From: Spiroplasma endosymbiont of Labia minor
GTDB taxonomy: Bacteria; Bacillota_I; Bacilli_A; Mycoplasmatales; Mycoplasmataceae
Assembly: GCF_964019845.1 (NCBI RefSeq)
Contig: NZ_OZ026465.1
Coordinates: forward strand, 496,001 to 560,000
Direction: 5' to 3'
Length of the DNA: 64,000 bases
A program made the translations under genes and the position numbers. Below are positions 19,479-48,363 of the stretch, piece after piece (the first letter of the stretch is position 1; each line of letters opens with the position of its first letter). Under the pieces are notes generated by a model. That model had not been told where the DNA came from, made no database searches, and worked only from the letters and a program-made list of their open reading frames with translations.

Positions 19479-20051
19479 ATGATGAGATACTGTATAACTG
19501 GAATAATTTTAGAAATAAATGATGAAATTATAATAATAAAAAATGGACATGTTGGTGAACAATTTAAACTGATAATAGAAAAAAATGTAGCTTTGAATTA
19601 TCAAATAAATGATGAAATTACATTGTATATTTATGATTTTCAATCTCAATTTGAAATAACATCATTTACATTTAATAGTTCAGTAATAAGAAATATTTTT
19701 GAACTATTGATTAATATAAAATCAATAGGAATTTTAACTGCTAAATCAATAATTAATTCTATAGAAATAGATAAATTTTTAAATATAATAAAGACTCATA
19801 ATTTTGATGAACTTTTAAAATACAAATTTATTAATAAATCTTCAGTTATTGTCATAATAAAAGAACTAAATATTAAATTATTTTGCAAAAAATATAAGAA
19901 AAAACAAGAAGAAATTATTGAAACTTTACAGAAATTGGGTTTTTCAAAAAATTCTATTTATCGTGTTATAGATCAATTAGATTCTAATTTACCATTTGAA
20001 AATTTAATTGAACAAACTTTGAAAGGTTTAAGTAATAATGAAACAGATTAA
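19479..20051 (+). CDS. ruvA: Holliday junction branch migration protein RuvA
   Basis: A 190-residue protein of the size and position expected for RuvA, which binds four-way DNA junctions and loads RuvB. The N-terminal OB-like domain begins MRYCITGIILEINDEIIII; a helix-hairpin-helix-like stretch follows (LLINIKSIGILTAKSII), and the C-terminal domain III-like segment has LQKLGFSKNSIYRVIDQL. It is highly divergent and would be uncertain alone, but ruvB overlaps its 3' end. GAGGTG lies before two tandem ATGs at 19479 and 19482; either may be used. Confidence 0.8.
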   Translation: MMRYCITGIILEINDEIIIIKNGHVGEQFKLIIEKNVALNYQINDEITLYIYDFQSQFEITSFTFNSSVIRNIFELLINIKSIGILTAKSIINSIEIDKFLNIIKTHNFDELLKYKFINKSSVIVIIKELNIKLFCKKYKKKQEEIIETLQKLGFSKNSIYRVIDQLDSNLPFENLIEQTLKGLSNNETD

Positions 20052-20987
20052 AATCAATAATAATGATAGGCCAGAAAATTGAAAAGATTTCTTTGGTCAA
20101 ACAAAGATTATAAATAATTTAAAGGTGATTATAGAGTCTTCAATTAAAGAAAATAAACAAATCGACCACATATTGATTCATGGTGGTTCTGGAATGGGTA
20201 AAACATCTTTAGCCATATTAATTTCAAAAGTTGCAAATAAAAAAATTCATATTTTAAATGTGTCTGCACTTCAAAAACCTTCTGATTTAATAGCTGTTCT
20301 TACAACAATAAAGGAAGGTGAATTTATTTTTATAGATGAAATTAATGCAGTCGAAAAAGAATTAATTGAAACGTTATATCCAGTTTTAGAAGATGGATAC
20401 ATTAACTTAATTATAGGAAAAGAGTACAATTCCAAAATTGTACACGTAAAATTGCCATCATTTACAATGATTACAGCCAGTACAGAAATAACAAAGATAG
20501 CAAAACCATTTTTAAATCGTTTCCCGATTCATGTTCAATTAGAACCATATAATATTGAAAATATTACTTGTATAATTCAAAATAAAGCATATAAAACAGA
20601 AATTAATATCAACCCTAATGAATGTTCATATTTAGCGTTATATGCGCGTAAAACACCTAGAATTGCAATTAGTTTAATGAATCGCCTTTTTGATTATTTT
20701 GTTGTTAAAAAAATTAGTGATTTTTCAAAAAATAGCATTGACGTTGTATTGAATAATTTAGATATTCATAAATTTGGGCTTACAAATATTGATATGAATT
20801 ATTTAAATTTGTTAATGAAAAGACAACCGTTAGGATTAGAAACATTATCTCAAATTATGAATTTGCCATTTGCAACAATTTCAAATAATATTGAGCATTC
20901 CTAATTCAAGAGGGATTAATAATCAGAAGTTTCAGAGGAAGAACTTTAACAGAGAAGGGGACTTTACTTTTACAAGAGGGTAGTTAG
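20038..20987 (+). pseudogene. ruvB: Holliday junction helicase RuvB, one-base frameshift near the 3' end
   Basis: The AAA+ motor of RuvAB. The main frame (20038-20904, 288 residues) has FFGQ, Walker A GGSGMGKTS, Walker B FIFIDEIN and the winged-helix domain, then stops at TAA 20902. The missing C-terminus is intact in another frame from about 20898 to the TAG at 20985: FLIQEGLIIRSFRGRTLTEK is the standard RuvB ending. A single missing base around 20893-20898 (GAGCATTCC where GAGCCATTCC would fit) explains it. A real mutation, a sequence error or recoding are possible. The segment usually carrying the arginine finger reads TASTEI, without Arg. The start overlaps ruvA by 14 bases. Confidence 0.85.
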
Positions 20988-25857: not shown

Positions 25858-27133
25858 ATGAAAAGATTATTAGAAATATTAGGAACAATTGGAATTACAA
25901 TAACTGGTTCATCATCAGTTGTGTCACGTGTTCATATTTTTTTAAACACTGATAAAATAAATTTAGATTCTATAGATAATTTAGATTCTATTGATGTTTA
26001 CGTTAAAGACAATCATAATGTTACAGAACAAGATGTGACTTACATTATTGAGTATCTACAAACACAAATTGTACAAGTAATAAATACAAGTCAATTAGCA
26101 ACTTCAGATGTTTCGTCTGTTGACTTTACAACAAATACAGCAGATGTTATAAAAACTGGTGATTTTTCTTCAATAAATGCAGTTGAAATATCAATTTCTG
26201 CTACAAGTAATTCGCAATATTTATTTGGATCAAAAAATATTCAATTAATAATTAATTTAGGTTTAGATTTATCAACTTTAAATAATAATATTGAATATCA
26301 AACATCAACATCAAATAATCTAATTTCAATAATTGGAGCTAAACAAAAATGATTTGATTTAAATAAAATTGAATTGAAAGCAATAAATACAAATATAGAC
26401 ATTTCGTGATTTGAAATTGCAAATTTTGATGCATGTAGTGAAAATATATTAGGAAATATAGACATTTTTGCAACACAAACGTATAATGAGCAATTTCAAA
26501 ATATTGCAAAAACTTTAATAGAAACAATCATAAAACAATCAGGTACAATTGATACATCTGTTGGTGGCGGAACTGATATTATAAAGGATGATAATACTTT
26601 TGATGGAATTATTGATGCAATCACTCAACTTTCAACTGGAACTATTCTAGTCGTAACTAATGCTAATTCAATCTACAAATTAACAGATGAAGGCAAAATT
26701 GATACATCTGTTGGTAGTGGAACTGGTAAACTAGAAGATAAAAACTTTTGATAGCACAATCCGATCAATCATTGAACTTTCAACTGGAACTATTCTAGTC
26801 GTAACTAATGCTAATTCAATCTACAAATTAACAGATGAAGGAAAAATAGATACATCTGTTGGTAGTGGAACTGGTAAATTGGAAAATAAAACTTTAGATG
26901 GAGCTGCTTGTTCAATCTTTCAATTTTTTGACAATACAATTTTAGTTGAAACATATGTAGGTTCAATTTACAAATTAACAGATGAAGGAAAAATTGATAC
27001 ATCTGTTGGTTATCGTACTGGTAAATTGGAAAATAAAACTTTAGACGGTTATGTTTATTCAATCGCTCAACTTGCAAATGGAATTATCTTAGCTGGAGTT
27101 TCAAGTAATTCTATTTATAAATTAGTAAATTAA
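25858..27133 (+). pseudogene. Broken propeller-repeat surface protein (family copy 1)
   Basis: The first frame runs 25858-26754 and stops at TAG; the remainder is open in another frame up to TAA 27131-27133. The N-terminus looks like a lipoprotein signal (MKRLLEILGTIGITIT) but ends SSVVSR where related copies have VVSC. A domain of about 190 residues follows, then four units of 49 residues with NANSIYKLTDEGKIDTSVG, resembling delta-60 (DUF5122) beta-propeller repeats. One extra A in the run at 26740-26744 shifts the frame: two nearly identical units are 148 bases apart rather than 147. Related copies lie at 43362-43934 and 47065-48190, both also damaged. Confidence 0.8.
26536..27133 (+). repeat. 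Tandem 147-base coding repeats
   Basis: Four tandem units, each encoding 49 residues of the propeller repeat. The first two full copies (starting at TTCAACTGGA 26631 and 26779) are almost identical over about 100 bases; later units have diverged more. Confidence 0.85.
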
Positions 27134-43361: not shown

Positions 43362-43934
43362 TTATTTTATCATAAAAAACGACCTGACTCAATGAGCAGT
43401 ATTTCCAGCAATAAAATCATTTGTTTTAAATCAATCGATGTTAACATTTTTATTAATCATCTTCAACTCAGTTTCATTTAAATTAAATCATCTATTTTTA
43501 GCTTCTATTTCTGTAATTTCAGTATTTGACGTTCAATATTCAATATCATTATCTAAAGTACTCAAATCATAACCAGAATCTGAAGTAGAATAAAAATTAA
43601 CAACAATATTTTTCAAACCTTTTAATAGTTTTGAATCTTCCGTCGCTTTAATTACAACAACAACACCAGATGATAAATCACCTGTTTTAATTTTTGACGT
43701 ATCTAATGTATAATATGTACTTGTAACTGTACTGGTTAAATTATTTATACGTAAAATTTCTGCAATTTACGTTTGAACATATTCAACTAAATTAATTACA
43801 TCTTGTTTTGTAATATTTTTGTTATTTTCATTATCACCATTGCCATCCATAGAAATAACACTGCATGAAATAATTGATGTTGTACTTGATAATGTAAGTC
43901 CAAAAATAGTTAATATACTTAATAAGTTTTTCAT
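43362..43934 (-). pseudogene. Truncated lipoprotein of the propeller family (family copy 3)
   Basis: The intact start MKNLLSILTIFGLTLSS leads to lipobox IISC. The frame stays open except for TAA at 43767-43769, where EYVQT is followed by a stop; the other two copies read EYLQTQ at this point, so CAA has become TAA. The rest of the N-terminal domain is readable (DLSTLDNDIEYW, then NVNIDWF), then the sequence ends without propeller repeats. Confidence 0.8.
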
Positions 43935-44166
43935 ATGTAAAATCTTCTCTTATTTTACTATAGTATATGAGTTGATAGTACATCCTTATTTGTGAAAAGT
44001 CAATGATTTAATTATTTAAACTTGAAGTTGCAAATTAAATTCACAAAAAAAATAATTATAATTTATTAATTTTACCAATAAAAATCAAAAACATATCTAT
44101 AAATAGATATGTTTTTGATTTTTATAATTTAATTTACTCTACTGTAATAGAAAACAAAATTCATCA
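43935..44166. other. Intergenic region, hairpin only
   Basis: AT-rich region upstream of the broken lipoprotein copy. Apart from the hairpin at 44080-44123, nothing recognisable. Confidence 0.4.
44080..44123 (-). terminator. Terminator of the fused ABC transporter gene
   Basis: Two 21-base arms (44080-44100 and 44103-44123) complementary throughout, loop AA, with T-rich flank on the - strand. Confidence 0.85.
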
Positions 44167-47064: not shown

Positions 47065-48190
47065 TTAATTCACTAATTTATAAATTGAGCTATTCATTGT
47101 TCCAGCTAAAAGAGTTTCGTTTGAAAGCTGGGCAATTGATAAAACATCATCTAACGCTTTATCTTCTATTTTGCCAGTTCCATTACCAACATATGTGTCA
47201 ATTGTACCTTCATCTGTTAATTTGTAAATTGAACCATTATCTGTTCCAGCTAAAATGATTCCATTTGCAAGTTCTCAAAACTTTCAATAATTCCATCAAA
47301 AGTTTTATCTTCTAGTTTACCGGTTCCACCACCAACAGATGTGTCAATTTTACCTTCATCTGTTAGTTTACAAATTGACCCTGCATATGTACTTCCTGCA
47401 AAACTTAAAATAGTTCCATTGGCAAGTTGAATCATTGAATTAATACCATATTTAAAAGTTTTATTTTCTACAACACCAGTTTCATTACCAACAGATGTAT
47501 CAATTGTACCTGACTGTTTTATAGTTGTCTTAATTGACACAATTGCTGTATTCTTAAATTGTCCATTATACATTCATGGAGCAAAAATATCTATATTTCC
47601 TAGTGCATTTGCATCTCCTGCTTTGAAATTTATAACTTCAAACCATGAAATATCTACACTTGAATTTATTAATTTTAATTTAGTTTCATTTGAATTAAAT
47701 TATTTTTGTTTTGCTTCATTTTTTGTAATTAATTTTGATCCTTGATATTCAATTTTATTGTTTAAAGTTGATAAATCTAAGCGTTGACCTGAATTAAATA
47801 TTATCTGAACATTTTTTGAACCAAACAAATATTGTGAATCATTTGTGACAGTGACTAATATTTCAATTGTGTTTGTTACAGAAAAATTTCCAGGAACAAT
47901 AATATCTGGAACATTTGTTGTAAAATCAGCAGCTGTAACTACACTTGCCAATTTATTTGTTTGTATTCTTTGCAAAATTTGTGTTTGTAAATATTCTATA
48001 ATATCAGTTACATCTTTTGATGTAACATAACGATTATCGTCTACATAAATATTTATGAAATCTAAATTAACTAGAGAATTTAAATTCATTTTATCGTTTT
48101 TTAAAGAAATAGAAATACACGATACGACCGATGATGCATCAGTTAATGTAATTGCTATTGAACCTAGTACTTGTATAATAACCTTTTCAA
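47065..48190 (-). pseudogene. Degraded propeller-repeat lipoprotein (family copy 2)
   Basis: Three lesions are visible. The signal peptide is in two frames: TTGAAAAGG at 48182-48190 aligns with the start of copy 1 but is one base out of phase with VLGSIAITLTDASSVVSC. A TAA at 47700-47702 replaces the TGA Trp found in copy 1 after EAKQK. A frameshift near 47270 puts the last repeat in another frame, which ends at TAA 47065-47067. The lipobox Cys is kept here. Propeller units with KLTDEGKIDTSVGGGTG follow the N-terminal domain as in copy 1. Confidence 0.85.
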
Positions 48191-48230
48191 ATAAATCATC
48201 TCCAAATTGATTTAAAATATTAAATATTAG

Positions 48231-48262
48231 TTCTTTTAAAAAAACTTGTTTTTTTAAAAGAA
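48231..48262 (-). terminator. Terminator downstream of pgsA
   Basis: Perfect 15-base arms (48231-48245 and 48248-48262) with loop TT; T tract inside the arm. No other gene lies between it and pgsA. Confidence 0.65.
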
Positions 48263-48363
48263 ATTTCTATTTATAATTATTAATTTTCAGTATTTTAAAA
48301 AATAAAAAGATATAAAATTAAAGCTAATTTTGTATCTAAATTAAAAATATTTATCTTGATAAA

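Follow-up and report, generated by a model that had tools for sequence, protein, structure and literature searches.

A one-base frameshift in a propeller gene of a Spiroplasma endosymbiont: a probable recent pseudogene in a family of putative surface lipoproteins

Repetitive propellers disrupted by frameshifts have already been described (Pereira and Lupas, 2022; PMC9218822). In these genes similar blades lie near the C-terminal end, an indel falls within the blade array and the remaining blades follow downstream in another frame, and the propeller gene analysed here resembles them on all three counts. The worked examples in that study are, however, WD40 and Kelch propellers, whereas the present gene belongs to a mollicute delta-60/Reg_prop lipoprotein family with a spiralin-like domain. 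The text of that paper does not mention Spiroplasma or Mollicutes, and a literature search brought up no account of this propeller family in Spiroplasma. A second described system is the A-run switch of mycoplasma lipoprotein genes, which are turned on and off by slippage (vaa, 7 or 8 A; p78, 7 A; PMC2831843). As in vaa and p78, a surface-protein gene is frameshifted in an A run, but those runs comprise 7-8 A near the 5' end, while the present one has 5 A, lies two thirds into the gene and is accompanied by further lesions.

By sequence, the nearest families of the gene and its paralogs are spiralin and plasma-type lipoproteins. In several paralogs the signal peptide and part of the N-terminal domain resemble spiralin-type lipoproteins (NF038030, PF05215), although the paralogs score far below the equivalog cut-off and their propeller repeats lie outside the model. 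The repeats, 49-50 residues long, resemble the delta-60 repeat/DUF5122 (TIGR02608, PF17164) and Reg_prop (PF07494) families in their blade motif, QL-NGTIL-GT---SIYKLTDEGKIDTSVG. Unlike curated members of TIGR02608 and PF17164, every paralog tested scores below cut-off (TIGR02608, E 2e-12 to 9e-3), while Reg_prop is above cut-off in three paralogs.

Frame, repeats and leader of the broken gene

The source genome is a single contig of 984,411 bases, and the window, the whole stretch of DNA analysed here, comprises its positions 496001-560000, 64,000 bases in all (GC 24.4%). Translation followed code table 4, in which TGA encodes Trp; together with the GC content and the nearest protein families, this marks the genome as that of a Spiroplasma-type mollicute. 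Positions below are those of the window unless the contig is named.

25858..26754, + strand: upstream part of the broken gene (298 aa), which encodes the signal peptide, a spiralin-like N domain, the first blade and the beginning of the second
25858..25929, + strand: lipoprotein-type signal peptide, MKRLLEILGTIGITITGSSSVVSR, with CGT (Arg) at 25927-25929 in the place of the lipobox Cys
26547..27077, + strand: 147-base (49-codon) tandem repeat, the putative propeller blades (Tandem Repeats Finder, self-comparison)
26618..26737, + strand: the earlier of two near-identical direct repeats, sharing 113/120 bases with 26766-26885 at an offset of 148
26738..27133, + strand: downstream part, which is open in the shifted frame and encodes the remainder of blade 2 as well as blades 3 and 4, with its stop at TAA 27131-27133
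26740..26744, + strand: A run AAAAA with the one-base frameshift; AAAA at comparable sites

The frame starting at ATG 25858 translates into a lipoprotein-type signal peptide, then a domain some 200 residues long and a single unit resembling a blade; this upstream part was delimited by code-4 translation, a match to LP_plasma and alignment with the paralogs. Because TGA is read as Trp in this code, the frame runs through TGA 26749-26751 and ends at TAG 26752-26754. Self-comparison places units 1 and 2 at a distance of 148 bases, and all later units at 147. The A run has five A at the lesion, compared to four at all 16 of the other comparable sites detected, two of which lie in later units of the same gene and 14 in paralogs. 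Beyond the lesion the shifted frame stays open for 131 codons, for which the chance is about 6e-5 at this base composition. A scan for promoters and terminators gave results near chance.

Some full-length product could still be made if the frameshift were bypassed by ribosomal shifting or by RNA polymerase slippage. The A run lies in an AT-rich genome, and A-tract slippage in Buchnera indeed yields in-frame messages (PMC2831843, PMC5574713). Nevertheless, the RNA polymerase of E. coli requires at least 7 T, and more A, for efficient slippage (PMC6260861), a +1 shift would be needed here while the -1 frame is closed, and the shift site is conserved in no paralog; we therefore regard bypass as scarcely credible. 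A programmed +1 frameshift was also considered and rejected, since each of the 16 other comparable sites keeps the reading frame with A4 and the -1 frame is closed.

Matches to propeller families and propeller folds support the prediction that the repeats form a beta-propeller. The window fragment itself stays below both cut-offs (TIGR02608, E 0.0023; Reg_prop, E 0.11). A single-sequence structure model of the downstream part reached a modest pLDDT of 62.7, and a fold search with this model returned propellers for all of the top 20 PDB matches (best E 1.6e-5). Sequence matches in the PDB were confined to 'Bagel' proteins, which the fold search also returned among designed propellers. The model of the N-terminal part (pLDDT 33) was set aside. 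CIF and other short Pfam matches in the paralog repeats were judged to be chance matches within the propeller repeat.

The leader aligns to positions 1-23 of LP_plasma, and the upstream part scores 25.4 bits against a cut-off of 24. Of 13 paralogs whose leader is readable, 12 keep the lipobox Cys, including the nearest sister copy. The window copy retains the signal peptide of a bacterial lipoprotein but, with Arg in the place of this Cys, lacks the lipid-anchor site.

We next turn to the age of the lesion. A blade HMM built without the window copy gave 82.6, 75.2 and 34.0 bits for the three blades after the lesion, the last of which is the short C-terminal blade. Intact copies scored in the same left-out manner reach about 46-92 bits for most full blades and about 17-28 bits for their short last blades, with weaker scores at the C end of copy 615722. 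Since the blades past the lesion are uneroded, the frameshift appears to be recent. The dN/dS of the N domain is 0.43-0.80 between the window copy and other copies, and 0.44-0.59 between intact pairs; this mild rise does not give relaxed selection statistical support and is not decisive. An earlier note on this DNA had described a propeller protein inactivated by one extra A, with a spacing of 148 instead of 147 bases, downstream units open in the shifted frame, a lipobox Cys changed to Arg, and a recent lesion. Our results agree with each of these points: the coordinates and the spacing are as described, A4 is found at every other comparable site, the repeats match propeller families and folds, the open frame to 27133 encodes well-conserved blades that score like intact ones, and CGT occupies a codon that is Cys in 12 of 13 readable leaders.

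The truncated product, an N domain with one blade and no anchor, might have been retained as a secreted protein. Its signal peptide is above the LP_plasma cut-off, the dN/dS of the N domain is below 1, and the open paralog 613421 likewise has no Cys. On the other hand, no other copy has this truncated shape, and the dN/dS includes the time before inactivation. As the downstream blades are uneroded, the truncation is too young for retention to be judged from it, and we give this explanation almost no credence.

Decay and blade number across the paralog family

A DNA search of the genome yielded 30 matching pieces, which correspond to 15 copies. A plasma-type lipoprotein signal peptide is present in most of them, a weak spiralin-like N domain in several, and the 49-50-residue repeats, with their weak matches to the delta-60, DUF5122 and Reg_prop models, in nearly all. 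In three copies (609946, 613421 and 663876) the propeller comes without the N domain. Eight copies are open (contig coordinates 247484, 609946, 613421, 615722, 617521, 622443, 626843 and 663876), and the window copy shares 67-69% DNA identity with open copies and 74% with its nearest sister. The family loci are both dispersed and clustered, and include contig 246-255 kb, 560-571 kb, 607-630 kb and 661-667 kb (L009, L012-L015). The open paralog at contig 613421-614437 (L013) has no lipobox Cys, and its propeller is offset by half a blade at both ends relative to the others. Seven of the 15 copies, the window copy included, are broken by stops, frameshifts or truncations that differ from copy to copy; the other six are:

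47065..48266 (contig 543065-544266), - strand: nearest sister copy, with TAA 47700-47702 and a frameshift near 47250-47304
43362..43949 (contig 539362-539949), - strand: third family copy in the window, with an in-frame TAA after 60 codons; the propeller is gone
contig 253158-254446: broken copy, frameshift in the N domain
contig 308222-308724: broken copy, stop in the signal peptide and a frameshift
contig 561913-562460: broken copy, frameshift, N part missing
contig 568274-569472: broken copy, stops and a frameshift in the N domain

In the sister copy the start codon is apparently displaced and three blades are left, the Cys is kept, and both comparable A runs are AAAA.

The extra A could also be an error of sequencing or assembly, in which case the gene would be an open one that has four blades and lacks the lipid anchor. 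Indel errors are typical at short homopolymers, and a conserved gene of the same record, ruvB, lies 5.8 kb away with a one-base frameshift of its own (20038-20904, + strand; frameshift near 20897-20904), by which about the last 25 residues are lost; the C-terminal FLIQEGLIIRSFRGRTLTEKG is encoded in the next frame. Among 12 same-family relatives, 11 have a RuvB match that reaches almost to the end of the model, and the twelfth has no good match. Either ruvB was newly lost here or the assembly contains an indel error. For this reason an assembly error at the A run keeps some weight. Against it, the model matches of about 20 conserved genes in the window cover the full length or most of it, and rpoB, rpoC and polC each form one open frame. 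About 40 kb of conserved genes contain about one frameshift, compared to about 10 lesions in about 7 kb of broken family copies. Moreover, several of the latter are stop substitutions, and neither the Cys change nor the missing blades are homopolymer errors. Hence, we consider an error unlikely, and a recent pseudogene remains our preferred explanation.

Open and broken copies differ in blade number. Six blade motifs are present in all eight open copies, whereas none of the six broken copies with countable blades has six, their counts being three or four. The window copy has four motifs compared to six in the open paralogs and falls short of the full six-blade ring. We left 613421 out of the statistical comparison, since it has no Cys and differs in the point at which the ring is cut; the contrast of 7/7 open with 0/6 broken copies then gives a Fisher value of about 6e-4, with the copies treated as independent. 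For copies 253, 568 and 615 the weakest blades were counted by eye in the translations. That every open copy has six blades and every broken one fewer suggests that completeness of the ring is what selection keeps. The four-blade form could nevertheless be inherited and not a product of decay, because copies 253 and 568 have the same count as the window copy.

Scans of the contigs of named genomes for relatives of the gene found none. Nine open relatives in two genomes of another genus (G035, G068) have six blades each, again counted by eye from translations, and a relative that is broken by a frame change (L063) has five. The other-genus relatives (L058-L067) carry this propeller on longer proteins, several of which contain a transmembrane stretch and have no lipobox.

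Slippage, recombination and the origin of the lesion

As an alternative to a recent lesion, the earlier note had suggested that the A run acts as an on/off switch. Slippage between A4 and A5 would then control the full protein. The precedent of vaa and p78 and the conserved downstream frame speak for such phase variation, as does the absence of mutS and mutL, for which the genome gave no match in a search that did detect control genes. Overall, however, this proposal is not supported. A5 is a short and commonplace run: exactly five A occur 269 times on the + strand of the window, which holds 937 A/T runs of at least five. Ten other A/T runs of at least five lie within the gene itself, one of them a T7:

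25937..25943, + strand: T7 run, in frame; it is longer than any other homopolymer in the gene and more favorable for slippage than A5

Phase switches are expected in runs of at least seven, usually near the 5' end, while A5 sits at 69% of the gene. Furthermore, the other broken copies carry different lesions elsewhere, and none of them is interrupted at this site. Even a product read across the A in frame would have four blades and no lipobox Cys, and so would still be without two blades and the lipid anchor. A phase-variation switch is in our view very improbable.

We conclude that the window copy is quite likely a recent pseudogene in a large, lineage-specific family of surface lipoproteins that evolves by birth and death. 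It is homologous to the open copies over the N domain and the blades, and carries a frame-breaking lesion relative to them. The ancestral protein would have carried a signal peptide with a lipobox, followed by a spiralin-like domain and a propeller of six delta-60-like blades, presumably displayed on the membrane. In the present copy, which has four blades and Arg for the anchor Cys, one A was most likely gained by replication slippage in AAAA, which would suit a genome where MutS and MutL are absent and slippage is left uncorrected; Spiroplasma symbionts evolve fast and without mutS/mutL (PMC8208695). Translation would end four codons beyond the lesion, leaving the N domain and about 1.3 blades, and function would probably be lost. 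The gene decay is of an ordinary kind, in a family that keeps amplifying and breaking. The single lesion by itself is of minor general importance; what it contributes is a mollicute example, seen together with all of its paralogs, of the amplification and subsequent breakage already known from repetitive propellers.

The lesion is located between two near-identical stretches, 26618-26737 and 26766-26885, which include an exact run of 67 bases (26627-26693 and 26775-26841). Since recA is intact, these stretches of about 120 bases could in principle recombine, and blade number and frame might vary reversibly by recombination between the near-identical 147/148-base units. A RecA-positive genome without mismatch repair would then keep opening and closing copies and changing their blade counts, and the broken copies would be a reservoir for surface variation. 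This reading rests on the intact recA and the flanking stretches, and we hold it to be improbable, a recent pseudogene being the explanation that we favor. Duplication of a 148-base unit was considered as the cause of the shift as well. It was rejected, because tandem duplication or unequal crossover should leave a full period, while near identity extends over only about 120 bases and stops just short of the A run. The two stretches are shorter than a full unit and look like the result of gene conversion between blades, which seems to fit the repeat geometry better than tandem duplication.
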